A stretch of 64,000 bases of DNA from Gemmatimonadetes bacterium 2013_60CM_65_52 (lineage in GTDB: Bacteria > Gemmatimonadota > Gemmatimonadetes > Gemmatimonadales > Gemmatimonadaceae): the NCBI GenBank assembly GCA_002215645.1, contig NGFI01000002.1:389406-453405 (forward strand), in the 5' to 3' direction. Both the position numbers and the translations under genes were made by a program. The notes beneath the pieces are model-generated. The model saw only the letters and a program-made list of their open reading frames with translations, searched no databases and had not been told where the DNA came from. Below, piece by piece: positions 11,742 through 49,554 of the stretch. Every line of letters starts with the position of its first letter. Within the stretch, counting starts at the first letter, position 1.

Positions 11742-12533
11742 TCACCGAATGTCGACGCGTTTGGAACGCTTGGATTCCTTTGGCACCGGAATCGTCACCT
11801 CGAGCACGCCGTTGTCGAACCGTGCATTGCATTGCGACGCATCGACGTCCTTCGGCAGCGGGATGGAGCGCGAGAAGCTTCGGTAGCTGCGCTCGGAGTG
11901 ATAGAACCCGTCGCGGTCCTCCTCGGACTCGTATTGCCGCGAGCCGCTCAGCGTGAGGATTCCGTCGTCGACCTCGACGGTGACGTCCTCCTTCTTTACG
12001 CCCGGCAGATCGGCGCGAATCACCAGGTCGTCGCCGCGCTGCAGCACTTCGACCTCTGGCAGCCAGCTCGTCCGCTGCGCCGCACCGCCGTCGCGCCGTG
12101 CGATGGAAGTATTGCCACGCGCCGAGCGGGGCGTTCCGGCGCCCAACGAGCGAATCGTGGTGCCGGACGGCGCGCCGCCCCAAGGCGCAAACGGATCACC
12201 GAGTGGCGCAAAGCCGAAATCGGCAAAGAGGCGGTCCATGTCCTCGCCGAATCGGCGCATGAACGAAAACGGACTGTTGTAGTGCTGCCAGTCCTCCGTG
12301 ATGTCGCGATCGCGCGCGGCCGGCGAGCCTCCAGAGCCGGTCGTTCTCGTCTTTTCGCGATCGATGGGGACGGTGCGCTGCTGATCGCCGCGCGGAGGAC
12401 TCTGGCTGGTCGATGAGCGCTTGCCCGGCGTGTTGTCGGCCGTGGAGCTGGTGGCGTGGCTCGTCGCGTTGTTACCAGCCTGATTCGTCCCGCTCTCCTG
12501 CTTGTCCTGCGCGTTCCGCTGATTGGTGGCCAT
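11742..12533 (-). CDS. Hsp20 / alpha-crystallin family small heat-shock protein
   Basis: ATP-independent chaperone that holds unfolding proteins. 263 residues, longer than usual because residues 1-85 are a Ser/Thr/Asn/Gln-rich disordered extension. The alpha-crystallin domain occupies about 155-255, with DLVIRADLPGVKKEDVTVEVDDGILTL and the closing NGVLEVTIPVP. A PFAPWGG-like linker precedes it. The ATG at 12533 has GGAG six bases upstream. A consensus sigma-54 promoter lies about 37 bases upstream, and the gene for a sigma-54 activator ends just before that, so control by this activator is likely but inferred. Confidence 0.9.
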   Translation of the reverse strand: MATNQRNAQDKQESGTNQAGNNATSHATSSTADNTPGKRSSTSQSPPRGDQQRTVPIDREKTRTTGSGGSPAARDRDITEDWQHYNSPFSFMRRFGEDMDRLFADFGFAPLGDPFAPWGGAPSGTTIRSLGAGTPRSARGNTSIARRDGGAAQRTSWLPEVEVLQRGDDLVIRADLPGVKKEDVTVEVDDGILTLSGSRQYESEEDRDGFYHSERSYRSFSRSIPLPKDVDASQCNARFDNGVLEVTIPVPKESKRSKRVDIR

Positions 12534-12569
12534 ACGATTCTCCGTGTTGACTGCTCGGCGGAAATCGCG

Positions 12570-12584
12570 GCAAGCCAAGTGCCA
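12570..12584 (-). promoter_or_regulatory. Sigma-54 (-24/-12) promoter of hsp20
   Basis: TGGCACTTGGCTTGC on the minus strand matches both boxes exactly (TGGCAC, N5, TTGC; GG-N10-GC). It lies in the 90-base gap between the sigma-54 activator gene and hsp20, with predicted transcription start near 12559 and the hsp20 ATG at 12533. Confidence 0.8.
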
Positions 12585-12623: not shown

Positions 12624-13637
12624 TCACGATGCTTCGACCAGGCGGATCGAGTCCGATGACATCTCTCGAACGATCCGCGCAAGCGTCGGCCGTGAGATAC
12701 CGAGCAGCTTGGCAGCGCGACTCTGATTGCCGCCCGTGGCGCTCAGAGTGAGATGGACTGCCTCCCGCTCGATCTCGCGAAGCGACTTGCCCGACAGCGG
12801 AATCTCGATTTCGCCGGCCAGCGGAGCGCCGGACATGAGTGTCGATCGCGACGTACGCCGCTGAATGAGCAGATGCGCGGCCTCGATGACCTTGCTGGCG
12901 CCGCTCAGCACGTGTGCGCGCTCGATCACGTTCTTGAGCTCGCGGACGTTGCCCGGCCAGGCATGAGCCTGCAGCAATGCTTGCGCATCGGACGAGAGCG
13001 TCTTGGGCGTCTGCTCGTGCTCGCGGGCCATCTCGCTGAGAAAGTACCGCGCCAGCACCTCCACGTCGCCGCGACGCTGGCGGAGCGACGGGATCTCGAG
13101 GCGTAGCACGTTCAGGCGATAGAACAGGTCGAGTCGGAATTCCCCGTCTTCCACCGCGCGCTCGAGCGCCACGTTGGAGGCCGCCATGATCCGGCAGTCG
13201 ATCGACACTTCCTGCGTGGCGCCAAGACGGCGGATCCGCCGCTCCTCGAGCGCGCGCAACAGCTTCGGCTGCACGTTCAACGGCAGTTGATGCACCTCGT
13301 CGAGAAACAGCGTGCCGCACCCGGCGAGCTCCATGAGGCCGGTCTTGCGCACCCGCGCGCCCGTGAACGCACCGGCTTCGTGCCCGAACAACTCGGACTC
13401 GAGCAGCGCATCGGGAATGGCGGCGCAGTTGATGGCCACGAAGGGCGCGGCCGCGTTACGGCCCTCGTAGTGGATGCCGCGCGCGAACATCTCCTTGCCC
13501 GTGCCGGTTTCGCCCAGCAGCAGCACGGTGGAGGTATGCGCCTGGGTCACCCGGCGCGCGAAGTCGATCGCCTGCCGCAGCTCGACGCTGCGACCGACGA
13601 CCCGGTCGAAAGTGAATCCCTGGGGTTGCAGCGACAT
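12624..13637 (-). CDS. Sigma-54-dependent transcriptional activator (AAA+ and Fis HTH, no sensory domain)
   Basis: 337 residues. The AAA+ domain (about 12-240) has Walker A GETGTGKE, the sigma-54 contact loop [15 protein letters not shown], Walker [11 protein letters not shown] and the arginine-finger region [16 protein letters not shown]-terminal Fis-type HTH (about 285-325) contains [20 protein letters not shown]. There is no receiver, GAF or PAS domain at the N-terminus, as in PspF, so activity is probably set by a partner protein or by expression level. A sigma-54-type element lies upstream of its own start and a perfect one at hsp20 just downstream. Confidence 0.93.
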
Positions 13638-13745: not shown

Positions 13746-14816
13746 CTACGCTGGCGGTGGAGGCGGCGCAGTGACCGGGGGCACGAACAAAGACCGAAGA
13801 GAATCATCGATTTCCGCAGCCAGGCGGACGGCGCCCGACTGCCGGAAGAGATCCTGCGCCTCGCGATAGAATTGCGACGCCTCGGTCGACTGGCGACGCG
13901 CCCGGAACATCTCCGCCATCTGCCGGCGAAGCTCCGCCGCAAGCAACACGTCCTCCCCTGCATCCGTGAGATCGAACGCCTCACGCAGCATGGCTTCGCC
14001 GTCGTCGAACCGGTCCTGCCGCCGAGCAATGCCGGCGAGCAGCTTCAGCGACTCCGCGCGACGCAACCGGTCGCCCCGCCGATCCGCGATGGCGAGCGCG
14101 AGCTTGCACTCCCGCTCGGCCTCGCTGAGCCGATCCGCCGCGAGCATGGCCTCGCTTCGGTTGATCCGGCAGACGCATTCGACGACCTGATCTCCGCGGT
14201 CCCGAGCGAGGTCGAGCGCGACGGAGAAGGCTGCCTCGGCATCCTGATACCGCCGCTGCGCCATGTACACCATCGCGATGTTGTTGAGGGAGCGGCACTG
14301 CCCGTCGTGATCGTCGATCTCCTCTGCCTTCCGGAGGCTGCCGCCGAATCGCTGTAGTGCGACATCGTGTTGGCCGCGGATGCTCGCGACAACGCCGAGA
14401 TTGCGTTCCACCATCGCGGACAGCCGGATGTCGCCCGCTCGCCCGGCTGCCTCTTCGGCTTCGCGGTACAACTGCTCGGCAAGATCGAGGTCGCCACGAC
14501 GCTCGGCCACGATGCCGCGACAGTTCAGGGCGTGTGCGTTGCCGAGCGCGTATCCAACCGTGTGGGCGATGTCCGCGCTCTGGCGATACAGGCGGTCGGC
14601 TTCGGCCGTGTCGCCACATTCGCAGTGCACGGTGCCCTTCCAGCGGAGTACGTCCGCAAGATCGTTGCTTGGTTCGCTATGCATGAGTGACGCGAGTGCG
14701 CGATCGTACCAGCCAAGCGCCTCACCCGCCGAACCGACGCGTTCGGCGGTCCGACCCCGTTCGATGAAGCGTCTCGCTTCACCCAACGTGCGGGAGGTGC
14801 GACGGTGGCGAGTCAT
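13746..14816 (-). CDS. Tetratricopeptide-repeat protein, paralogue of the N-terminal part of the 1,605-residue protein
   Basis: 356 residues made almost wholly of TPR helices from about 15 to 335, with a short proline tail and no signal peptide. Segments such as MVERNLGVVASIRGQHDVAL and RSLNNIAMVYMAQRRYQDAE line up with MTAQNLGVIANIRGDLDLAL and KTLNNLGLLHTGQQRWSAAA in the giant protein encoded at 15.6-20.4 kb. Even the C-terminal AEIDDSL region matches ADIDSRM there. It thus looks like a copy of that sensor domain lacking all output domains. It follows a lipoprotein gene by 37 bases, as the giant gene does. Confidence 0.8.
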   Translation of the reverse strand: MTRHRRTSRTLGEARRFIERGRTAERVGSAGEALGWYDRALASLMHSEPSNDLADVLRWKGTVHCECGDTAEADRLYRQSADIAHTVGYALGNAHALNCRGIVAERRGDLDLAEQLYREAEEAAGRAGDIRLSAMVERNLGVVASIRGQHDVALQRFGGSLRKAEEIDDHDGQCRSLNNIAMVYMAQRRYQDAEAAFSVALDLARDRGDQVVECVCRINRSEAMLAADRLSEAERECKLALAIADRRGDRLRRAESLKLLAGIARRQDRFDDGEAMLREAFDLTDAGEDVLLAAELRRQMAEMFRARRQSTEASQFYREAQDLFRQSGAVRLAAEIDDSLRSLFVPPVTAPPPPPA

Positions 14817-14853
14817 TGTCGCGCTGCGCAGTGGAGTGTGGGACTCGCGCGGC

Positions 14854-15513
14854 TCAGCTATCGTCGGCGGCGCGTCCGGACGACATCAGGTATCCCGAGA
14901 AGTGGTCCACGGTGAAGGTGAAGTTGCGCTTTTGAACGTTGACGGTGCCGGGGCGCAACTCCTTCACCCGGACTTTCGTGTGTTTTGAATCGACGAAGTT
15001 GCGATCGAGGTCGGTGTCGAAGTACGCACCGATCAGCAGAGGCGCGAGCGCCGGATTCTGCTGGACCGAGGTGTTCCGCAGTTCCTGCTGGATGAGAACC
15101 GGCACCGGAAACACCAGGTGCGGCTGGAAGTCATACGCCACGTCGTCGCCGGGCTTGGCGGTGACGGTGATCAGTGTGCGCACGGGTACCGCGCCCGCCG
15201 GGAACGTCACGACGACGCCCGCGCCGGGAAGCCACATCTGCCCGCCCGCCGGCCCGATCCAGGCCGTCGTCGTGATCCGGGCCGAGAGCGGTGTGAGACG
15301 CTTCACGGTGACGACCGTGTCTTCGTGACCCTGCCCGGGTCCGTTGTTGCCGTTCGACTGATTGCTTGCGGCACCCTTGTCGGCGAGCGCACCGACAGCC
15401 GTAAGGCGCGTGCTCTCGCGCATCGGGCTTGTGGGACCTTCGGCGCCCCGACACGCCAGCAGCAATCCTGAGATGACTGCGAGGGGTGGAATGAGACGGG
15501 CCATGCGCGTCAT
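14854..15513 (-). CDS. Lipoprotein with ZU5-like domain
   Basis: 219 residues. The signal peptide ends in the lipobox LLLAC (Cys about residue 21). A Ser/Asn/Gly linker leads to a ZU5-like beta domain: GGQMWLPGAGVVVTFPAGAV, then LITVTAKPG, then a FPVPVLIQQ-type strand, with HFSGYLMSSG near the end. Such domains act in protein-protein contacts in the periplasm or envelope. The ATG at 15513 has GGAG seven bases upstream. It lies between the giant signalling gene and a TPR gene on the same strand. The C-terminal HFSGY motif is shared with the lipoprotein at 20.4 kb. Confidence 0.75.
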   Translation of the reverse strand: MTRMARLIPPLAVISGLLLACRGAEGPTSPMRESTRLTAVGALADKGAASNQSNGNNGPGQGHEDTVVTVKRLTPLSARITTTAWIGPAGGQMWLPGAGVVVTFPAGAVPVRTLITVTAKPGDDVAYDFQPHLVFPVPVLIQQELRNTSVQQNPALAPLLIGAYFDTDLDRNFVDSKHTKVRVKELRPGTVNVQKRNFTFTVDHFSGYLMSSGRAADDS

Positions 15514-15553
15514 CGCTGCTCTCCGTAAAGGGTCTTGCAACAAGGGGTCTTCT

Positions 15554-18500
15554 TCATCCGACCAACAGCGTCGGCACGCCGTCGTGCGGCGTCACCGCGA
15601 GCCGACCGTGCTTCAGCAACTCGACAAACCGCGCCGATAGCGGCTCGGCTCCCATCCGTTCAGCGCGGTCCGCGTATTCCGTCGCGATATCACGGATGAC
15701 GGACCTCGAAACCGGCGCGGAGCCATCGGCGAGCAATGGGGCGCACGTCGCCACGAGCCATGCGACTCCGTATGCGTCGTGTGCGCACCCGAGGTCCACG
15801 CCGGACTCGAAGTAGCGCTGGGCCCGAGGACTATCTCCGTCCGTGAGCGCCATGCGAACCGCCAACGCCTCGACGAGCTCACGTCCCTGGAACCACGCAT
15901 GGCCCAGCACGCAAAGCACGGCGAGCACCGAACGCCACGACGCGGCAGCCATCTCTTCCTCCCCCGCGTCGAGCGCCATGAGACCGATCCCGGCGCTGGC
16001 ACCAGCGACGACCTCGTGCAGTCCGACTGCACGCGCCAATGCGGAGACCTCGCTGTACAGCCGAATCGCGTCGTCGCGCCTCCCCTCCTGCCGCGCGAGG
16101 TGCGCGAGGTTGTAGAGGGCGGCGACGCGGTGCGGCTCGTTCCCGATGGTCTCGAACAACTCGTTCGCCTCCTCGAGCTGCGCGCGCGCATCCGCCATCC
16201 GGCCCCGCTTCATGAACAGCGCACCGAGGTTGAGGGCGGCCAGTCCTGCAAAGTCGGGTGTATGCACGTCGCGGCCACGTGCGAGAGCACTGCGGTACGC
16301 GCTCTCGGCTTCGTCCAGCGCGCCGAGATATGTGTGCCCAACGCCGAGATTGATCTGGCAGCGGATCTGGCCGAGCGCGTGATCGAGCGCTTCGCACAGC
16401 TCCAGCGCCCGGCCAAAGTGCAGCATCGCCTCCGCTGGCCGTTCCTGTAGTATCGAGGATCCCAGCCGGAGGAGCGCCTCGGCCTGCGGCCATCGGTCGT
16501 CGCGACGTTCGGTGATGGCCAGGCACTCCCGCGCCAGGCTCCACGCGACATCCGCTTCGCCGGTGCGGCTGTGGGATTGCGAGAGCGTCATCAGGAGCGC
16601 CGCGCGCTCGTCATCGAGCCCGAGCGCCTCCGCCTCAGCCAACAATTGGCGACACGAGGCGCGCGTCACGTCCACGGCCTCGCCCTGGAGTGAGCGAAGG
16701 CGCGTGACTCCCCGGCGTACCTCCGCGCGCTGAGCAACGGACATGGAGGCCCCGTATTCCTTGATGACGGAGCCATAGATCGTCTCTGCCTCCGGATATC
16801 GACCCGCCGACTCGGTGATGGCCGCTCGGCGGATGCGCGCGCCGGCGAGGAGCACGGGGCTGGAAGCGTGACGCTCCGCCGCGATGAGCTGAACGATCGC
16901 CTCGTCGTGAGCATACACGGACGCCGCGCGCTCCGCCGCTTCACGCGCATGCGCGAAGGCCTTCTCCTGCACGCCAGCGACGTCGTAGTGGTGTGCCAGC
17001 GCAGCAACGTGAGTGGGCCGCAGCTCCTCCATTGCCTCTGCCACACGCTGATGGAGCCGCTTCCGCCGCTCGGGATTCAACGTCTCGCGCATGATGTCCA
17101 CGAGAAGCGCGTGCGCAAACGCGATATGGCTTTCGCCATGCACATCCGATACGTCGAGCACCGATCGCGTGATGCCTTCATCGATGGCGTCGAGCACTTC
17201 CTCCTCCGAGCCGATGCCGGCCCGGACAACCACTTCCACGTCGATGGCGCGTCCAAGCGTTGCGGCGGCGGCGAGAATGCTGCGCGCCCGCGGAGACAGC
17301 CGGCTCACGCGGCGCGTGAGAAGGTCGCTCACGGCGACGGGAAGCATACCTTCGCTCGGCGTCGTCCACTCCCACCGACGCCCGGTCCAGCGGAGACGAT
17401 GCTCGTCCAGGAGTGACCGGAGCATCTGCACGGAGAAAAACGGGTTGCCCTCCGATTGGCGATACAGATACTGCACGAGGGCATCGTCCGCCGGGCTGCT
17501 GAGCACCTGGCACAACCAGTCGTGCTGCTCCGCCGCCGACATCCGCGCGACGCGCAGCAAGGAAAAACGCTCGTCCCGCGAGAGCCGCGCGAGTGCATCG
17601 GTACTGGCGGTGCCGTTGTCCTCTTCGCGGATCGTCACGCAAAAGAGGATGCGATCGCGGGCGACGCGCGTCATGACGTGCTCGAGCAGGCTCCACGACG
17701 TCTCGTCCGCCCACTGCATGTCGTCGATGACGATCACGAGTGGACGCGCCGCGGCGGCAAGCGCGAGGTACTCGGCGACCTCCTCGAAGAGCGCGAAGCG
17801 CGTTCCGTCTGCTGACGGCGGCGCCGCGGCTCCCGCATCGGACAACAAGCGCGGCAACTGCCGCCACGGGCGATCGACGACGACACGCAACACCCGGATT
17901 GCCTGGAGCACCGCCGTCCAGGGCGCGAGTGGTGCGCGCGCCTCGGCGTCGACGCAACGGCCGAGCACCAGCGAGCCGGCCCGCATGCGGACCTCGGAGG
18001 CCATCTCGCGTACGAGTGCCGACTTCCCGATGCCCGCCTCTCCCACGACCGCCACGAGGCGCGCGCCCGAGTGGACGCTCTCATCGAGCAGTTGCGTGAG
18101 CCGGCGCCGCTCCGCCACGCGGCCGACGAAGCGCTCCTGCGTAAGGGGCTGGTCGTGGCCGGCCGTGCGTGCCTGCCCCGCGGACACGGCGATGTCGCGG
18201 CCCTCGAGCTTCGCCTCGTACAGCGCACGGTCCGCCGACTCGAACAGCTCCTCGATCGTCGCACCGTTGTCCGGCGCGACCGCGACACCCACCGAAATGG
18301 TGGTGCTCATCGCCGACCGGCGGTCGGACGGAGGACTCATCGCGAGACTGTGGACCGCACGGCGCAGCGAGTCCGCGACGATCATCGCGTCTTCCGGCCG
18401 GGTGTTCGAGAGCAGCGCGACGAATTCGTCACCGGCGTAACGGCCAAGGAAGTCCGACGAGCGAATGTTGCGACGCAACACGCCCGCCAGCTCGCGCAGT

Positions 18501-20371
18501 ACCTCGTCGCCCGCGAGATGGCCGTAGGTGTCGTTGATCAGCTTGAAGTGATCGACGTCGATCACCAGCAGAGACACGGCCGAGGGACGCGAGCGCAGTT
18601 CAGCGCGTGCCCGCTCGAGGAACGCGCGGCGCAGTGGCAGGCCCGTCAACTCGTCCGTCTCCGCGCCGCCACCCACGCCGTCGAGCCGCGGACGAGTGGC
18701 CGGCGCACGGACGCCACCACGCGTTCGCGCCAGCTCGCCCGACACCTCCTCGAACGCCGGGAACAGCCCGGGATCGAACTGATGGCCCACGTCATGGCGC
18801 ATGACGTCCAGCGCTTCCTGGTGCGAGAGCGGACGCTTGTAGCTCCGCTGCGACGTGAGCGCGTCGTAGACGTCCGCGATGCACAGAATGCGAGCCGTCA
18901 ACGGAATCTCCTCGCCGACGAGACCATGCGGATAGCCCTCGCCGTCCCAGCGCTCGTGGTGCGATTCGACGATCGGCCGCACGTCCCACGGGAAATCCAC
19001 GTCGGCGAGCATCTCCGCGCCGTGCACGGGATGCTGCTTCACGAGCTCCCATTCGATGGGCGTCAGCGGGCCCGGCTTGTTCAACACCTCCGACGCGATC
19101 ACCAGCTTGCCGACGTCGTGCAGCATGGCACCGATGCGGAACCAGAAGAGGGACTGCGCGTCGAGGCCCGCGCGCGCCGCCAGGGCGCAAGCCACGTCGG
19201 CCACGCGCTCGCAATGACCCTGCGTGTAGTGATCCTTCGATTCGATCGACTCGCCCCACTTCCGGACGACGTCGAGGAAATCGCCCTCGAGCTGCGTCAT
19301 GCGCGAGTCGATGTCCGCGAGCTCGCGTCGCGCGCGAAGCTGCGAGAAGATGCGATGCGCCGCGTTGAGACAGTGCAAGGTGTCGCGATTGCGCCCCTGC
19401 CGGCGGTGCAGATCGGCTTTCGCCTTGGTGGCCTCCGCAAGCAGGAGCAGATCGTCGCGCCGCTCCGCGATGTCCTGCGCCTTGCGGAGATGCTCCTCGG
19501 ACGAGGCGAGGTCGCCCGCCTCCCGCGCGATGATCCCGTACACCTTGTGGAGGTCGCCCTCCGCGCGCGCGTCGCTCGCGCCCGCGGCGAGCGCCGACGC
19601 GAGGTCCGCTACGAGGCGGGCACGTTCGAAGTTCCCCTGCGCCAGGAAATGCTCGGCGTAGTTCACCTCGATCATGATGCGCGAGCTGACGTCGCCGAGG
19701 ATTTCAGCGATCGTCAGGGCTTCCTGATACACGGCAGCCGCCGCGCTCCAGCGCTGCTGGCCAGTGTGCAGCAGGCCGAGATTGTTGAGCGTCTTGCAGA
19801 CGTCGGCAGGCAGGCCGAGCGCGCGATAGTCGCGGAGACCGGTCTCGAAATGGTGAAGCGCCAGATCGAGGTCGCCGCGAATATTCGCGATGACGCCGAG
19901 ATTCTGCGCCGTCATTGCGGCAAGCTTGGCTTCGCCTGCCGAAACCGCGTTGTCGCGCGCCGCGTTGAAGAGCACCTCTGCCTCGTCCATGCGGCCGGAC
20001 TGCCAATGCACGATCGCCTGGAGGTTGACGGCGTGGCCGATGGCAGCGACGTCGCCGTGCTCCGTGGCAATTTCGAGCGCGGTGTTCAGACACTCCAGTG
20101 CGGCGTTGCCGTCGCCGTCCGTCTGATGGGTGCGTCCGATCCACCGCAGGAGCGCCGATGCTTCTCGCGCCCTGGGGTTCGGCAGCAACTCGAGCGCGCG
20201 AAGCCATAGCTCGCGTGCCCGGACACGCTGCCCCTCACGCTCGGCCTGAAGCCCCTGCTCGACGAGCTCCTCGTACGCCGGCGAGTCGCCGTTCGCGACG
20301 ATCAATCGCAGCGCGGGCGACGAGCGAGCCGGCGTCGTGACCGCGGCCCGGCGATAGGAGCGTTCGTTCAT
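15554..20371 (-). CDS. Giant TPR / HD-GYP / GGDEF / AAA-type ATPase / TPR signalling protein
   Basis: 1,605 residues, no signal peptide. Order: TPRs (about 30-350); HD-GYP c-di-GMP phosphodiesterase (about 380-545) with HDVGK and HHERWDGEGYP; GGDEF diguanylate cyclase (about 575-700) with DVDHFKLINDTYGH, an inhibitory-site RSSD and the signature RYAGDEF (Ala for the first Gly); a STAND/LuxR-type ATPase with Walker A GEAGIGKSA (about 777) and Walker B VIVIDDMQWADE (about 882); then TPRs to the end (1,100-1,600). Both turnover activities of c-di-GMP appear intact, gated by an ATPase and two protein-binding arms. Its start overlaps the upstream lipoprotein gene by four bases. Partner and signal are unknown. 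Confidence 0.9.
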   Translation of the reverse strand: MNERSYRRAAVTTPARSSPALRLIVANGDSPAYEELVEQGLQAEREGQRVRARELWLRALELLPNPRAREASALLRWIGRTHQTDGDGNAALECLNTALEIATEHGDVAAIGHAVNLQAIVHWQSGRMDEAEVLFNAARDNAVSAGEAKLAAMTAQNLGVIANIRGDLDLALHHFETGLRDYRALGLPADVCKTLNNLGLLHTGQQRWSAAAAVYQEALTIAEILGDVSSRIMIEVNYAEHFLAQGNFERARLVADLASALAAGASDARAEGDLHKVYGIIAREAGDLASSEEHLRKAQDIAERRDDLLLLAEATKAKADLHRRQGRNRDTLHCLNAAHRIFSQLRARRELADIDSRMTQLEGDFLDVVRKWGESIESKDHYTQGHCERVADVACALAARAGLDAQSLFWFRIGAMLHDVGKLVIASEVLNKPGPLTPIEWELVKQHPVHGAEMLADVDFPWDVRPIVESHHERWDGEGYPHGLVGEEIPLTARILCIADVYDALTSQRSYKRPLSHQEALDVMRHDVGHQFDPGLFPAFEEVSGELARTRGGVRAPATRPRLDGVGGGAETDELTGLPLRRAFLERARAELRSRPSAVSLLVIDVDHFKLINDTYGHLAGDEVLRELAGVLRRNIRSSDFLGRYAGDEFVALLSNTRPEDAMIVADSLRRAVHSLAMSPPSDRRSAMSTTISVGVAVAPDNGATIEELFESADRALYEAKLEGRDIAVSAGQARTAGHDQPLTQERFVGRVAERRRLTQLLDESVHSGARLVAVVGEAGIGKSALVREMASEVRMRAGSLVLGRCVDAEARAPLAPWTAVLQAIRVLRVVVDRPWRQLPRLLSDAGAAAPPSADGTRFALFEEVAEYLALAAAARPLVIVIDDMQWADETSWSLLEHVMTRVARDRILFCVTIREEDNGTASTDALARLSRDERFSLLRVARMSAAEQHDWLCQVLSSPADDALVQYLYRQSEGNPFFSVQMLRSLLDEHRLRWTGRRWEWTTPSEGMLPVAVSDLLTRRVSRLSPRARSILAAAATLGRAIDVEVVVRAGIGSEEEVLDAIDEGITRSVLDVSDVHGESHIAFAHALLVDIMRETLNPERRKRLHQRVAEAMEELRPTHVAALAHHYDVAGVQEKAFAHAREAAERAASVYAHDEAIVQLIAAERHASSPVLLAGARIRRAAITESAGRYPEAETIYGSVIKEYGASMSVAQRAEVRRGVTRLRSLQGEAVDVTRASCRQLLAEAEALGLDDERAALLMTLSQSHSRTGEADVAWSLARECLAITERRDDRWPQAEALLRLGSSILQERPAEAMLHFGRALELCEALDHALGQIRCQINLGVGHTYLGALDEAESAYRSALARGRDVHTPDFAGLAALNLGALFMKRGRMADARAQLEEANELFETIGNEPHRVAALYNLAHLARQEGRRDDAIRLYSEVSALARAVGLHEVVAGASAGIGLMALDAGEEEMAAASWRSVLAVLCVLGHAWFQGRELVEALAVRMALTDGDSPRAQRYFESGVDLGCAHDAYGVAWLVATCAPLLADGSAPVSRSVIRDIATEYADRAERMGAEPLSARFVELLKHGRLAVTPHDGVPTLLVG

Positions 20372-20994
20372 GGTGTGCTGTCCGCCGGCGGGCTGCCGTC
20401 GAACGTAGCGACCTGATAGCCGCTGAAATGCAGGATAGGCCGGTACACGAAGCCTGACTGAGCGTCGCGCGAAGTGACGAGCGCGGCGTTCGTGAGGCTT
20501 TCGTCGACACAGACACCCGCGTCGCAGTACAGGATCTTCGACGTCGCGTTGCGCGACGCGGCCGGATCGTACAGGTACAGAACCGCCGATGGTACGAGAC
20601 CGCTGAGGGGAACGAAGCGAAGGCGCGGAAAGAAATCGACGTGAGGATGCCCGGATTGGTCAGCCCACGTGCGAGCCGTGATGACCACGGGCAGCGTCGC
20701 GGGCAGGCACGGTACCGTCCATTCACCGACCCCGTAGGTCGAGGCGAGATCGCAAATGCCGCCCGCCTCGACGCGGAGCTTGTTCGAGCGCCCGATGTCG
20801 TACGTCCCGGCGACTGCCGGGTCGACGGTGATGACCGTGACCGTGGTGTCGATGGAGGTGAGCAGCGACGTGACGCCGCTCAGCAGGGAGCGCGACGAGC
20901 TGGTGGGGCGAGATGCGACGTCAGCCGTGCACGCGCACAGGACGACTGCCGACGTGATCAGCAGTGAAGAAATCGCGCGTTTGTCGAAGGCCAT
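20368..20994 (-). CDS. Lipoprotein, first gene of the giant signalling operon
   Basis: 208 residues. The signal peptide ends in the lipobox VVLCAC. The mature protein has a Ser/Thr-rich linker and a beta-rich domain ending in HFSGYQVATFDG, the same closing motif as the ZU5-like lipoprotein at 14.9-15.5 kb, so the two are probably distant paralogues. The ATG at 20994 has GGAG nine bases upstream; the longer reading from 21024 lacks an RBS. Its stop overlaps the start of the giant gene, so the pair is translationally coupled. A sigma-54-type promoter lies 72 bases upstream. Confidence 0.72.
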   Translation of the reverse strand: MAFDKRAISSLLITSAVVLCACTADVASRPTSSSRSLLSGVTSLLTSIDTTVTVITVDPAVAGTYDIGRSNKLRVEAGGICDLASTYGVGEWTVPCLPATLPVVITARTWADQSGHPHVDFFPRLRFVPLSGLVPSAVLYLYDPAASRNATSKILYCDAGVCVDESLTNAALVTSRDAQSGFVYRPILHFSGYQVATFDGSPPADSTP

Positions 20995-21065
20995 AACCGC
21001 TGCTCCAGGCCGCTCATTGTCCATCCCGCGCTACGTCGCGCACGCTTTGGGCGAGTCGGTCAAAT

Positions 21066-21081
21066 AGCAAGCGCCGCACCA
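21066..21081 (-). promoter_or_regulatory. Sigma-54 promoter of the lipoprotein/giant signalling operon
   Basis: TGGTGCGGCGCTTGCT on the minus strand matches the -24/-12 consensus at all but two positions (TGG.-C-G, N4, TTGCT) and keeps GG-N10-GC. The predicted transcription start is near 21054, with the lipoprotein ATG at 20994. Confidence 0.65.
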
Positions 21082-21142
21082 CGTTGTAAGTTGCTGCGAC
21101 ACAATGCTTTACGGATCGCACGGACATTCTGTCCTGAGCGGT

Positions 21143-21159: not shown

Positions 21160-21203
21160 CGTGTTGTAAAGAATTGTTGCTGTGTGCGACGGCCCCGGAG
21201 GTC

Positions 21204-40618: not shown

Positions 40619-40804
40619 AACTGGCCTCAAAACCGAATGGCGGCCGAAGATCGCGCCAAACCCCGCAAGTCCAGTCCCGACGCCAACTTTCGAAGTGACG
40701 CCTCACGTTGACTATTCGTCCCCATGTTGATAAGTTCGCAGCCCTTCGGATGTGTGAGCGGAAGCGCGCTCCACTCCGAGTCCGCGCCTCTCCCGGTTCG
40801 TGTC

Positions 40805-41272
40805 ATGAATTCCCGCCTGCTCATCTCGTTGCTCTGCGCCGGAGCGCTCGCACTCGCGTGCGGTTCGCTCACCAAGCATGAAGGTACGGCCACCACGAGC
40901 ACGCGACATTCGAGCAAATCGATCACCGCACCGCGCGTCAACAGCACCTTCGCCGTCAACATCGAGCCTCACGCGCTGCACTTCGCGCTCAATCTCACCA
41001 ACGAGAGCCGCAAGAACGTCGAGCTCGAGTTCCCCAGCGGCCAGCAGTACGACTTCAGCGTGCTCGATTCGCTGGGACACGAAGTCTATCGCTGGGGCGC
41101 CGGCCGCATGTTCACGCAGTCAGTGCAGAACCGCAATCTCGACGGCGGCGACACCATGCGCATCGAGGAGCGCGCGCAGACGTCGCTCCCGCGAGGCCGT
41201 TATGTCGCCGTCGCCACGCTCCACAGCAAGAACTTTCCGATGAAGGAGAGCTCGGCTTTCGAGCTGCGGTAG
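40805..41272 (+). CDS. Lipoprotein with BsuPI-type domain
   Basis: 155 residues with a lipobox ALAC (Cys about residue 19). The mature domain is an Ig-like beta sandwich: HFALNLTNESRKNVELEFPSGQ in part (FALNLTNES), YDFSVLDSLGHEVYRWGAGRMF, and a late LPRGRYVAVATL, all matching the intracellular proteinase inhibitor BsuPI fold. Whether it inhibits a protease in the periplasm is unknown. The ATG at 40805 starts the signal peptide. A second BsuPI-like gene follows. Confidence 0.75.
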   Translation: MNSRLLISLLCAGALALACGSLTKHEGTATTSTRHSSKSITAPRVNSTFAVNIEPHALHFALNLTNESRKNVELEFPSGQQYDFSVLDSLGHEVYRWGAGRMFTQSVQNRNLDGGDTMRIEERAQTSLPRGRYVAVATLHSKNFPMKESSAFELR

Positions 41273-44844: not shown

Positions 44845-47800
44845 ATGGCCACAACTGAGCTCCGCCTTCTCGGCGAGAGCGTCATCGTCACGCCGAAAGC
44901 GCGCATAACGTCCAGCGCGCCGCACCTGTTCGGGCTCATGCTGTTATTGACGCTCGAGCCCCCCGGGAGCCTCAGTCGGCGGCAGATTCAGGCGTTGTTG
45001 TTCAGGTCCCCGGACGGGCGTTCGGCGTCCCACAACCTGCGGCAATTATTGTATCGCATTCGGCGAGCGGGGCTCACCATCGACGAGCGTGGCGGTGTGC
45101 TCACACTCCAAGGCGCGCACACCGTGACGCCGATTCAGCTCCTTCGCGCACGCTCGCCCGAACAGCGAAGCGGACTGACGCCGGGCGCACTCGTTCCCCT
45201 TCCCGGATGGGCGCCGAAGCTACCTCCAGCATTCGTCGACTGGCTTGACGAGCGGCGCAGCGCGATACGGCGTCAGGTGATCGAGTGTCTTACGGGCGAT
45301 ATCACCCGTGCCAAGGCTGGCTCCGACTGGCAGCTCGTGAATCGCCTCGCGGGGCTGCTCCTCGAGTTGGAGCCGGATCACGTCGCGTCGAGCTATTCAC
45401 GCGCAGAGGCGCTTTCGATGCTCCGTCGGCAGCAGGAGGCGCTCGACGTCGTCGATCGGGCGCTCCGCAACGCCGCTATTCCACACGTCCGCGACGAGCT
45501 CCAGAAGTTTCGCGGGCGAATCGAGCGCCAGCCGGTATCGCGCGTTCAGCCCCGCCTGCACGGGCGGCAGGATTGCATGGCCTTTCTCTGGGACCAATGG
45601 GAGCAGTGTCGTGCGAGCGCACGCCTCGTCGTCCTTCTTGGCGCGCCCGGGATGGGGAAGACCCGGGTTGCCGACGAGCTCTCGGCCGCGGCTCGTCTGC
45701 GTGGCGTGACCGTGATTCAGCATCGGTGCGAGGGGAGCGCACGCGCGTATCCCTTGTCGCTCTTCGCACAGGTCCTCCCCGAGTTGCGCGCCAAGCGCGG
45801 CAGTCTCGGCGCGGCGCCCGCGCATGTCGCCGTGCTCGAGCGTTTGCGTCCCTCGAACGCGACATCCGCCTACGAGATTCCGCGCGGCGAGTCCCTTCAG
45901 GCGCTGCGGACCGAGATCCAGGATGCGTTGATCGACGTGATCGAGGCCGTGAGCGCGGAGGCACCGCTCCTGCTCATCGTAGACGACGCGCATCTGCTCG
46001 ACCGCAGCTCCGCCGCAATTCTCCGTGCACTCAGTACCGCGAGGAACTCCGCGCATCTGATGGTTCTGGCCTGCTGCCGTCCCACGGCCGAGGCTCAGCA
46101 GCTTCTCGCGCCGAGTGAGCGGTCGGCATCTTTTCCGCTTGCGCCGCTCGAGGCGTCGGACAGCCGCGCGTTGCTGGCGGAGCTGACCGGGCATCTGCAT
46201 TGGAGCAATGAGCATTTCGAGACGTGCCTGCGGGAAGCGGAGGGCATTCCGTTCTATCTGAATGCGATCTCGCGCGTGGAGCCTGCTGCGCGGGAGGCGG
46301 GATCGCACGGGTTCGACGTGCAGTCCCTCGGCGCCAGCTCCTACTTCTCATTGGATGCGGCGGCACGGCTGGTCCTAGAGAGCTGTCTGCTACTGGGCAG
46401 CCTGGCGACGCTGGAGCGTTTGCGCTCGATCACGGAGCTCGATGAGATCGGGTTGATCGGGGCGGTCCGGACACTGGAGGAGCGCGGCGTGGTGAGCCTG
46501 GTGGACGATCAACTTCGCGGCCCTCACGCGCTGTTGGAGGCGGTGATCCTCGGGCTCATTCCTCCGGGTGTGCTGCGGCTCCTGCGATTGCGTGTGGCGA
46601 GCAAACTGGCGGCGGAGTGCGAGGCACAGGGGTACTCGATGCCGTTGGCGTTGGCGGCGGCGGAGAACTGGCTGGCGGCGGGAGATGAGGCAGCCGCCGT
46701 CCACGTTCTTCTCAAATGCGCGACTCACATCGCTGCATTGGCCGAACCGGCAGAGGCAGTAACACTCCTGACGAAGGTGCCCACAACGGCTCTCAAACCG
46801 CGCAATCAGGCCGCGCTCCTCGACCATCAAGCTCGTTATGCGGCCGCCGCGAATATGCAGCAGGCGGTGCCATTGCTGCTTCGCCGCCGCCTCCAGCTTG
46901 CCAAGGACCTCCGTCAACCTCCTGCGGACATTGCCGCGCTCGAACTTCGTCTGGTAACAGCAGACACTTTTGTCGGTGTTGACACCTCCAATGCGCTCAC
47001 GTCCCTACGCACTATCGTGAGCGATCCTGGGAGCGGAGAACATCATCGGCTCGAAGCCATCACCCAGATGCTGATCATCGCCGACGCCGACTACGATGTC
47101 GAGAGCGCTCACTCGTTGTACCTTCTTGTTGAGCGCTCCTCACCAACTGCACTTGCATCGTTGGCGGGGCAGCAGGCGCAACTCGTCTTTCAGACGGCCT
47201 TTGGCGATCAACGGCGCGCTCTCCAATTGGCAACGGAGATCACCGAACGGATTCCCTCAGCGACGGACGACGCCGCCTGCCGTCGAGTGCGCCGGCATAC
47301 AGCGTATGCGTTAAGCAGATTGCTGGAGCTCGACAGAGCGTCGTCATTGTTACTGGCGGACTACCACTTCGTCTCGACGCGCGGCCTTAAGTTCGAGTCC
47401 CTTTTCATCGCGTCGCTGCTCAGCGACATAGCGCTTTCTCGTGGGGAGCTCGGCGACGCTGAGAGATGGTTTGATGTGATGAAGAGCATGACGACTCAGG
47501 GCAATTCCACGACCACAGTCCCGGTTACCGGCTACTACCATGCTGGCGCTCTTCTCGCGATGCTGGCAGGTCGGTATCAGGAGGCTGAGAGTCTCATCGA
47601 AGTGCCCGAGAATGAGGACGCGCGAATGCGCTGCGCTCGTTACGTAGCTTCGCGACTTGCGCTACGCCTTCGTCTAAATGTTCTACGTGGTGATCATATC
47701 GATACTGAGCTCGTAGCTTCCCTGCGCGAGCTATATGACCGCGGGCGAGTTCTGGGCGGTCAGGATTCAATCGTTGAGGCACTTTGGTGCGCCCTTCTAC

Positions 47801-47955
47801 TCCGTGAGGGCCCTCAACGCGCCTCCGAGTTTCTAAGCGAATACCTCCGACACCACCGGCGAGAGCGAGGCTCACCTGAGTGGCTGCTTCGACACCGCAC
47901 TTCTGCCGATGATGCGTGGCAGGACGTGATGCTTGAGAGTCCGATTGGAGGCTAG
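44845..47955 (+). CDS. SARP-like / STAND ATPase / TPR transcriptional activator
   Basis: 1,036 residues. An N-terminal winged helix (about 5-90, SLSRRQIQALLF and NLRQLLYRIRRAG) resembles SARP/AfsR DNA-binding domains; a BTAD-like helical part follows to about 230. The ATPase has Walker A GAPGMGKTRVAD (near 268) and Walker B LLLIVDDAHLLDR (near 377). The rest, to 1,036, is helical repeats. Such proteins bind DNA and oligomerise when a signal releases the ATPase. The last third (from about 46,900) has clearly lower GC and different codon choice. It converges on a membrane HD-GYP gene. Confidence 0.82.
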   Translation: MATTELRLLGESVIVTPKARITSSAPHLFGLMLLLTLEPPGSLSRRQIQALLFRSPDGRSASHNLRQLLYRIRRAGLTIDERGGVLTLQGAHTVTPIQLLRARSPEQRSGLTPGALVPLPGWAPKLPPAFVDWLDERRSAIRRQVIECLTGDITRAKAGSDWQLVNRLAGLLLELEPDHVASSYSRAEALSMLRRQQEALDVVDRALRNAAIPHVRDELQKFRGRIERQPVSRVQPRLHGRQDCMAFLWDQWEQCRASARLVVLLGAPGMGKTRVADELSAAARLRGVTVIQHRCEGSARAYPLSLFAQVLPELRAKRGSLGAAPAHVAVLERLRPSNATSAYEIPRGESLQALRTEIQDALIDVIEAVSAEAPLLLIVDDAHLLDRSSAAILRALSTARNSAHLMVLACCRPTAEAQQLLAPSERSASFPLAPLEASDSRALLAELTGHLHWSNEHFETCLREAEGIPFYLNAISRVEPAAREAGSHGFDVQSLGASSYFSLDAAARLVLESCLLLGSLATLERLRSITELDEIGLIGAVRTLEERGVVSLVDDQLRGPHALLEAVILGLIPPGVLRLLRLRVASKLAAECEAQGYSMPLALAAAENWLAAGDEAAAVHVLLKCATHIAALAEPAEAVTLLTKVPTTALKPRNQAALLDHQARYAAAANMQQAVPLLLRRRLQLAKDLRQPPADIAALELRLVTADTFVGVDTSNALTSLRTIVSDPGSGEHHRLEAITQMLIIADADYDVESAHSLYLLVERSSPTALASLAGQQAQLVFQTAFGDQRRALQLATEITERIPSATDDAACRRVRRHTAYALSRLLELDRASSLLLADYHFVSTRGLKFESLFIASLLSDIALSRGELGDAERWFDVMKSMTTQGNSTTTVPVTGYYHAGALLAMLAGRYQEAESLIEVPENEDARMRCARYVASRLALRLRLNVLRGDHIDTELVASLRELYDRGRVLGGQDSIVEALWCALLLREGPQRASEFLSEYLRHHRRERGSPEWLLRHRTSADDAWQDVMLESPIGG

Positions 47956-47976
47956 TTCTCGCCTGTCGACGAGAAC
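47955..47976. terminator. Hairpin between converging genes
   Basis: GTTCTCG and CGAGAAC form a 7-bp stem with an 8-base loop in the 28-base gap between the SARP-like gene and the HD-GYP gene. No T tract, but the location suits a bidirectional terminator. Confidence 0.45.
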
Positions 47977-47983
47977 GACGTGA

Positions 47984-49309
47984 CTATCTGCGTCCGCCGG
48001 TTGCCATAAGCCGCAGGATACTGGTCCGCGGGGTAACTCTGTCCGTCGGCGGGAACAGCCACGCCCAGAAATCGCTCTCAAGAAGCTGATCAGTGATCTC
48101 CGGATCGAACTGTCGGCCCCGGCATCGACGCAGTTCCGAACGCACGACCTCTTCGCCGAGCGGGCCTCGATAGGGCCGTTCGGTTGTCATCGCATCGAAC
48201 GTGTCAGCAAACATGATGATGCGGGACGCCAAAGGAATCTCTGTTTCCTTCAGTCCCTCAGGATACCCCGTGCCATCCCAGTTCTCGTGATGATGTCGAA
48301 CTGCTGGGACGAGCTCGCGCAACTTTGTCATCGTGGCGATCAAGTTGGCACCATCTTGCGGGTGCTCCTTGATTACTGCCCACTCCTCGGCGGTCAGGCG
48401 CTCCTCCTTCGCAAGGATTGGAGCGTACTTGTCGTAGATTTTCCCAACATCGTGTAGGAGTGCAGCGGTACCAACCTTCTCTACTTCGGCTCCTGATAGG
48501 CCAATGAGCTTCGCAATCTTTATAGCATATTCCTTTACGCGTCGAGAGTGGCCAGACGTGTAGGGATCACGCGCTTCGATGGACTTAACCATCAACTCGA
48601 GTAGCTCACGATTCGTCTGTGCAAGCTCGAGGTTGGTCGTGTTCATCTGACGCAAACCAAGAATCGGCAGCCACAGTAGAGAAGCCAGCATGGGCCCGTA
48701 ATTGGCATAAACCCAAGCGAACGCGAACACGAGCGGCAGGGCCAGAATGTCGAGACCCACCGTGGAAAGGTTGTTTTCGCGCCAAACCTGCCACGTTCTT
48801 ACATTTGTTGCAAGCGCGATTACATGACTTACCAACAGCGTGTTCAACGTGAACACAATCCCGTAAGCAACAATTAGCGGAATACCAATCTTCAGTGTGG
48901 CGTCTGCCGCAGACGTATGAGTCAACGCGAGCAACGTAACTCCGCCGAGCTGTCGATAGACCGCGATCGCGATAGCGTAGGTAACGATGAGCTGCGCTGT
49001 ATTGAACGCGAACTTGATGACGCCGCGCCGCTTGGCAATTTCCGCGATGGCGTTGGCTAATCCAATCGCAGCAAGGGCCGCGAAATTTGGCACGAGCAAG
49101 ACCGCGGTCATGTACGGGATAAACGAAATCGATCCCGTGGCACCCCGCGGAAGCAAGAAGACCATCAACTCCGCAGTTAATGCGAGAGCTGCGAGTACTC
49201 CAACAGTGCCGACGCTGTAGTCGCTCGGAGGAGGAGCAACCCCCCATAACATCACCGATGCAACAGCGGCGAGGACACAGATTAGCTGAATGAAAGACTT
49301 AATGCTCAT
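47984..49309 (-). CDS. Membrane-anchored HD-GYP c-di-GMP phosphodiesterase
   Basis: 441 residues. About seven membrane helices occupy 1-225, a MASE-like sensor, followed by a linker helix and an HD-GYP domain (about 240-420) with HDVGK (near 305), HHENWDGTGYPEGL (near 355) and a DTFDAMTTERPYR segment. It should hydrolyse c-di-GMP. The ATG at 49309 is preferred over a TTG at 49342. Local GC is lower than average. It is a second HD-GYP protein after the giant one at 15.6-20.4 kb. Confidence 0.9.
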   Translation of the reverse strand: MSIKSFIQLICVLAAVASVMLWGVAPPPSDYSVGTVGVLAALALTAELMVFLLPRGATGSISFIPYMTAVLLVPNFAALAAIGLANAIAEIAKRRGVIKFAFNTAQLIVTYAIAIAVYRQLGGVTLLALTHTSAADATLKIGIPLIVAYGIVFTLNTLLVSHVIALATNVRTWQVWRENNLSTVGLDILALPLVFAFAWVYANYGPMLASLLWLPILGLRQMNTTNLELAQTNRELLELMVKSIEARDPYTSGHSRRVKEYAIKIAKLIGLSGAEVEKVGTAALLHDVGKIYDKYAPILAKEERLTAEEWAVIKEHPQDGANLIATMTKLRELVPAVRHHHENWDGTGYPEGLKETEIPLASRIIMFADTFDAMTTERPYRGPLGEEVVRSELRRCRGRQFDPEITDQLLESDFWAWLFPPTDRVTPRTSILRLMATGGRR

Positions 49310-49554
49310 CGCGTTAGGTTGATGCGACCGCCCTCTTGCCAACTACTCGTTCGTCATGCCCAAAGGTTCGTGCCGCTAAAGCAGAACGAGAATAGTGCAC
49401 CAAGGAAACCAGTCATTTCGCGTCACCTCCACATCTTGAAGGTCGTGGTTGCCCACGCCAGCCCAAAAGTGTTGGCTCCGCTCAGTTCTCTAGTTCCGCT
49501 TCGCTAAGGGTTCGCTCCAGCAAAAGGGTCGGCCTGCATCACACAAGTAAATTC
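49310..49554. other. Lower-GC intergenic stretch
   Basis: About 245 bases between the HD-GYP start and the next gene, with lower GC than the flanks and no open frame with an RBS. It may hold the HD-GYP promoter or a decayed gene; I see no repeats or RNA motif. Confidence 0.4.

Follow-up and report, generated by a model that had tools for sequence, protein, structure and literature searches.

Putative c-di-GMP operons combining ZU5/GAIN-type lipoproteins, TPR proteins and a sigma54 activator in Gemmatimonadaceae and their relatives

The sigma54 activator PspF is a receiver-less AAA+ protein with a GAFTGA loop and a Fis-type HTH, and it is governed by its partner PspA. In Vibrio vulnificus, the TPR-only protein RcbA binds the TPR-GGDEF protein RcbB through both TPR domains and derepresses it (PMC12282931). 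The canonical autoproteolysis motif is H-X-S/T, and His-Phe stacking is important for cleavage; the motif alone is insufficient, because BAI2 keeps HLS yet is not cleaved (PMC13062082). The nucleophiles are T838 in CL1 and T383 in GPR56 (PMC13062082, PMC7948743), and the autoproteolysis motif of PIDD is HF/S (PMC3210808). Bacterial ZU5 domains have been described in polymorphic toxins and large surface proteins as secreted, proposed autopeptidases (PMC3482391). A survey of the open-licence literature found no publication on a lipoprotein-TPR c-di-GMP module, no paper joining Gemmatimonas or Gemmatimonadetes with HD-GYP, and no work on ZU5 lipoproteins beyond the last of these reports. Each single part of the locus described here is already known; the combination of the parts and their spread in Gemmatimonadota did not turn up in this literature.

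In this study, five genes were found on the minus strand of a 64-kb window, which is the whole stretch of DNA that was analysed. Their order is lipoprotein 1 (20368–20994), a giant protein of 1,605 aa (15554–20371), lipoprotein 2 (14854–15513), a short TPR protein of 356 aa (13746–14816) and a receiver-less sigma54 activator (12624–13637). The presumed starts are 20994 for lipoprotein 1 (the end of the originally predicted region; an alternative ATG lies at 21024), 20371 for the giant, the ATG at 15513 for lipoprotein 2 (with GGAG upstream), 14816 for the short TPR protein and 13637 for the activator. The intergenic gaps are −4, 40, 37 and 108 bp; nothing resembling a terminator was found between the five genes. 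The genes from 20994 to 12624 are read as one operon that is presumably co-transcribed. The first four had been placed at the same coordinates by the original prediction, which included neither the activator as fifth member nor four further pairs of an HFSGY lipoprotein and a TPR-type protein elsewhere in the genome. We propose that the operon is a Gemmatimonadaceae c-di-GMP module expressed from a sigma54-type promoter, in which the short TPR protein would be a partner shifting the activity of the giant and the lipoproteins would form the envelope side; this proposal has about an even chance of being right.

The giant begins with a TPR array (residues 36–361; 19289–20266) that is homologous to the short TPR protein. 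An HD-GYP domain (residues 376–535; 18767–19246; Pfam HD_5, E 1.5e-37), a GGDEF domain (residues 570–726; 18194–18664), an AAA_16 ATPase domain (residues 747–909; 17645–18133) and a second TPR array follow. Pfam matched TPR_12, HD_5, GGDEF and AAA_16, and the motifs HDVGK, HHERWDGEGYP, AGDEF, the RxxD I-site (RSSD) and Walker A are all intact, which confirms the predicted architecture of HD-GYP, GGDEF, ATPase and second TPR array. The giant is probably a cytosolic enzyme able to make c-di-GMP through GGDEF and to break it through HD-GYP, and its activity could be gated by the N-terminal TPR array together with an AAA_16-TPR switch. Outside the lipoprotein-TPR module, a 1,036-aa protein that presumably resembles BTAD-type regulators adjoins another HD-GYP protein (47984–49342) within the stretch 44845–49342 of the window.

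Both lipoproteins of the window end in HFSGY and are each paired with a TPR protein, as had been noticed at the outset. Lipoprotein 1 has the lipobox LCAC and its HFS motif at 20422–20430, and lipoprotein 2 has the lipobox LLAC and its HFS motif (mature residues 184–186) at 14896–14904. Only HFSGY is common to the two in pairwise BLAST. Lipoprotein 1 finds its best matches in a subfamily with a conserved Cys pair, and lipoprotein 2 in a plain type; the profiles of the two subfamilies align with 98.3% probability and E 1.4e-14, HFSGY falling on HFSGY, and the two proteins are therefore homologous. The HFSGY DNA pattern occurs at six places in the 4.2-Mb genome versus two for a reversed control, and all six belong to this family, which rules out HFSGY as coincidence. 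All six HFSGY proteins, two of them in the window, adjoin a TPR or GGDEF-AAA-TPR gene. The other four loci comprise a lipoprotein with TPR-HD-GYP, histidine kinase and pilin genes (C11), a lipoprotein with a second giant of 1,629 aa (C2 at 227 kb), an AraC-like regulator with a lipoprotein and a TPR-only protein (C10 at 544 kb), and a GGDEF-AAA-TPR protein with a lipoprotein (C10 at 57 kb). A further ORF of the window (40724–41272) was considered as a family member and was rejected after its sequence was read.

Of 249 genomes from the phylum, 95 gave matches to a profile of the six lipoproteins, and a contig scan with a five-row alignment gave six loci. Sixty neighbourhoods from relatives (Gemmatimonadaceae and other Gemmatimonadota MAGs) were picked by the lipoprotein alone, giving 67 lipoproteins when those of the own genome are included. 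A TPR, TPR-HD-GYP, giant or GGDEF-AAA-TPR gene directly adjoins 53 of these 67, on the same strand in 52 cases; some of the others have a family gene at a distance of one or two ORFs, and about 9 of the 60 loci are orphans. Among same-strand family genes, 41 are immediate downstream neighbours of a lipoprotein gene and 15 are immediate upstream neighbours. An operon of lipoprotein, short TPR protein, sigma54 activator and TPR-HD-GYP protein recurs with the short TPR proteins of one clade, in L093, L094/L126, L098, L114, L115, L116 and L124, and the window operon reads as this arrangement with the giant as its HD-GYP part, placed upstream with a lipoprotein of its own. Because the pairing recurs across relatives, it is taken to mark a real signalling module and not a chance duplication. 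The co-occurrence that the original prediction had proposed to look for is thus present, in six of six cases in the own genome and 53 of 67 overall; neither an absence of the pair elsewhere nor an alignment at random level, the two outcomes named beforehand as speaking against that prediction, was found.

Variants of the pairing were also observed among the neighbourhoods. The GGDEF-AAA_16-TPR partners in L032 (3418–6444), L069, L072, L078, L080, L087, L089 and L091 mostly give no GGDEF motif match and often have no Walker A, and are probable pseudo-enzymes; in these loci, the lipoprotein gene lies downstream, not upstream. In L020 (7043–8794) and L129 (12352–13452), lipoprotein and TPR-HD-GYP genes are followed by a histidine kinase, and in L020 also by a type IV pilin-like gene, which hints at a link to pili. 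AraC-type regulators with a receiver-like N-terminus adjoin TPR proteins in L033 (3975–6835) and L022 (6692–7525), one of these loci having a lipoprotein and one having none. Two or three lipoprotein genes are clustered beside one TPR-type gene in L067 (7563–10770), L086 (7405–10279), L130 (9806–11967) and L117 (7486–10684), and some lipoproteins (L112, L067, L068 and L086) are long enough for two domains.

The short TPR protein consists of repeats followed by a short Pro-rich tail at its C-terminus. It aligns with residues 36–361 of the giant at 117 bits (31% over 327 aa, 1 gap, 1e-32), versus only 36 bits for the C-terminal TPR array of the giant. The next matches in the whole genome are the TPR domains of two other HD-GYP proteins (90 and 80 bits), and the remaining TPR matches reach 50 bits for a protein adjoining an HFSGY lipoprotein and at most 26 bits for the others. 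Since other TPR proteins of the genome score far lower, the alignment is specific and not generic TPR likeness, and the predicted kinship of the short protein with the N-terminal array of the giant stands far above that of random TPR proteins. The original prediction had gone further and had read the short protein as a duplicate that could compete with the array of the giant for one ligand, as a decoy or modulator; the clear homology of the two arrays, which align repeat by repeat, and their location in the same operon are consistent with that reading. However, in a tree of 63 TPR domains the two arrays fell into distinct, old clades that each have conserved gene partners of their own. One clade (support 100/100) unites the short TPR protein of the window with 12 other short TPR proteins from the family. 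The second (100/99) holds the TPR domains of every giant, that of the window included, together with those of most TPR-HD-GYP proteins, both from the family and from class relatives. Outside these two clades lie 11 TPR-HD-GYP proteins, which form a group, and three short TPR proteins (L022, L097 and L123), the placement of L022 and L123 being unsure on account of their long branches.

On the strength of the TPR tree and the differing lipoprotein subfamilies, a recent tandem duplication of the lipoprotein and TPR pair was rejected; of the duplicated module that had been proposed, the module itself and the homology of the TPR domains are retained. The genus relatives L103/L125 carry giant, lipoprotein and activator without a short TPR protein, and L120, L121 and L128 carry lipoprotein, activator and TPR-HD-GYP protein likewise without it, and the short protein is therefore not essential to the module. 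Its loss in a relative that has the giant (L103) also indicates no fixed stoichiometric need. Given its own clade and its absence from L103/L125, a decoy arising from recent duplication is unlikely, and competition between the two arrays for one ligand is a most improbable account of the short protein. Moreover, no signal peptide was seen in the TPR proteins; the lipoproteins carry a lipobox and are predicted to be exported, and therefore the two TPR domains cannot simply be rivals for the lipoprotein as a ligand. To judge from the tree and the neighbourhoods, the short TPR protein represents an old lineage that has been conserved separately, alongside partners of its own, namely the sigma54 activator and the TPR-HD-GYP protein, and its distribution fits a dedicated but dispensable regulator. 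Thus, the decoy half of the original proposal does not hold, and the modulator half has a published precedent in RcbA/RcbB (PMC12282931).

The activator of the window has an AAA+ domain with a GAFTGA loop and a Fis-type HTH, and has neither a receiver nor a sensor domain of its own. RpoN is present in the genome, and with these sequence features the protein classes as a sigma54 activator (bEBP). Promoters were scanned with a hand-made −24/−12 weight matrix. The sequence match TGGTGCGGCGCTTGCT (21066–21081, minus strand; 13.9 bits), ahead of lipoprotein 1, has the top score in the whole window on either strand. The arms GTAAAGCATTGT (21101–21112) and ACAATTCTTTAC (21166–21177) of an imperfect inverted 12-mer, which may be due to chance, lie upstream of lipoprotein 1 and could be candidate activator sites. 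Across the family, a site of at least 13 bits was found upstream of 9 of 67 lipoproteins versus 1 of 553 other genes. Sites of at least 11 bits precede 7 of 9 operons with an activator versus 5 of 57 lipoproteins without one (Fisher 3e-5, the genomes being related and the counts not fully independent). Outside that count, L120, L127 and L128 score 15.6, 15.0 and 11.7 bits, and L130 scores 16.0 bits with no activator in the stretch examined; no sigma54-type site was found in L129, a locus of the activator-free type. Dependence on sigma54 is not universal, because the activator homologues adjoining giants in L067 (15689–16717) and L068 (13575–14594) have no GAFTGA; they have no strong site either and probably no longer work with sigma54. 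A second −24/−12-like site, TGGCACTTGGCTTGCC (12569–12584, minus strand; 12.1 bits), lies just after the activator gene of the window, where an Hsp20-like ORF (11742–12578) begins; the activator may act on this ORF as well.

The adjacency of short TPR protein and activator in the window and in L093, L094, L098, L114, L115, L116 and L124, together with the absence of a sensor domain from the activator, would also suit a different arrangement. The short TPR protein might regulate the activator and not the giant, holding and releasing it in the manner of PspA and PspF on a c-di-GMP-dependent or envelope signal. However, activators occur without the short protein in L103, L120, L121 and L128, and the short protein occurs without a nearby activator in L097, L123 and L022. 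Its strongest sequence kinship is with the TPR domains of HD-GYP proteins and so points towards a TPR-TPR complex, and control of the activator in place of the giant is rather unlikely. In the preferred reading, the short TPR protein would bind the TPR array of the giant (in relatives, that of the TPR-HD-GYP protein) TPR to TPR and shift its activity as RcbA does, and the activator encoded next to it would be a second likely target. The activator would make the operon self-reinforcing.

No database family matched the lipoproteins apart from weak ZU5 hits. Among 40 divergent members, 24 matched Pfam ZU5 (best 1.9e-6), lipoprotein 2 itself remaining below the curated cut-off, and a PDB profile search placed the ZU5 domains of ankyrin-1, ZO-1, UNC5B and ankyrin-3 among its best, weak hits (E 0.04–0.4). 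The AF2 model of lipoprotein 2 has a domain pLDDT of about 95; its top structural matches are ankyrin ZU5 (Z 11.6), UNC5b (8.3) and ZO-1 (7.8), and adhesion GPCR GAIN domains follow at Z 5.8–7.8, slightly above unrelated folds (about 6). The ZU5 sequence hits and the position of the motif indicate that the GAIN relation is more than a common arrangement. The model thus assigns a ZU5/GAIN-type beta-sandwich fold to lipoprotein 2. The model of lipoprotein 1 is poor (pLDDT 46), and its kinship is given by the profile alignment with the subfamily of lipoprotein 2; both are predicted to be exported lipoproteins of one ZU5/GAIN-type family.

Three columns are invariant across the 40 divergent lipoproteins: one holds a Phe of the core, and the other two are the first two residues of HF(S/T). 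Its third residue, Ser or Thr, and the aromatic residue that follows are nearly invariant. The motif fits the canonical H-X-S/T and lies close to the C-terminus in all 67 lipoproteins, with a C-terminal strand of 7 or 8 residues in 26 of them. The last structurally aligned pair joins F185 of lipoprotein 2 to residue 837 of CL1 and residue 382 of GPR56, just before T838 and T383, which places the HFS motif at the GAIN cleavage position. The last aligned residue of GPR97 opposite F185 is 249, after which GPR97 is cleaved. Self-cleavage of the lipoproteins at HF(S/T) is plausible on this modelling. The lipoproteins might even be stand-alone GAIN/ZU5 domains self-cut at HF|(S/T), with the short C-terminal strand held like a Stachel until envelope force or a ligand releases it and reports to the TPR, c-di-GMP and sigma54 proteins encoded alongside, e.g. 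by import of a peptide that a TPR array then binds or through some membrane partner; this elaborate scheme is very unlikely.

The lipoproteins could also be cargo only, such as adhesion or matrix proteins placed with c-di-GMP and sigma54 regulators and signalling nothing back to the TPR proteins. That the lipoprotein gene stands first in most pairs and carries the sigma54-type site agrees with this possibility, as does the location of lipoproteins and TPR proteins in different compartments, but the position of a promoter tells only the order of an operon. The lipoproteins are small, single-domain and often in tandem with giants, and their extremely conserved catalytic-type motif would be at least as much in keeping with a role in processing or sensing. 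A cargo role is a real possibility, to which we incline somewhat less than to its negation. Under the module that we propose, the two lipoproteins would be its envelope side, as sensor or regulated output, and a lipoprotein would either signal by way of a membrane partner encoded elsewhere or of a peptide that is released, or serve as output only.

If this proposal is true, Gemmatimonadota have an envelope-to-c-di-GMP module that has been duplicated repeatedly (this genome has six of the lipoprotein genes) and links a ZU5/GAIN-superfamily lipoprotein to c-di-GMP enzymes and often to a sigma54 activator. The invariant HF(S/T) would offer a small bacterial protein for probing the origin and use of ZU5/GAIN self-cleavage, which has been studied mainly in animals. 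The locus would also allow the question posed by RcbA/RcbB, whether TPR-only proteins steer TPR-tethered c-di-GMP enzymes, to be asked in an independent case.

The window pair resembles RcbA/RcbB in that a TPR-only gene and a TPR-enzyme gene share one operon, although a lipoprotein gene intervenes in the window. The lipoprotein, HD-GYP domain, AAA ATPase, second TPR array and sigma54 activator of the window module are all absent from RcbA/RcbB; the short TPR protein has no counterpart of the C-terminal region of RcbA, and GGDEF directly follows the TPR array in RcbB, whereas HD-GYP does so in the giant. RcbA/RcbB has been reported from gamma- and beta-proteobacteria only, and the window pair may work like RcbAB by analogy without being classed as a member. 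The lipoproteins are similar to the ZU5/GAIN/Nup98 domains of PIDD, NLRP1/CARD8 FIIND and adhesion GPCRs in fold (GAIN Z about 6–8) and in H-X-S/T within the last strands at the cleavage position. In contrast to those proteins, they are single-domain bacterial lipoproteins, known here from sequence and model, that have no UPA, death or 7TM domain and often only 7–8 residues from the motif Ser to the C-terminus. The bacterial ZU5 domains described before lie inside large RHS/SpvB toxins (PMC3482391), whereas the domain here is a free-standing, lipid-anchored protein encoded beside c-di-GMP genes. Likeness to RRNPP-type peptide/TPR systems is limited to the adjacency of the genes and the short C-terminal tail. 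Unlike in PspF/PspA, a TPR protein encoded in a c-di-GMP operon is the candidate partner of the window activator.
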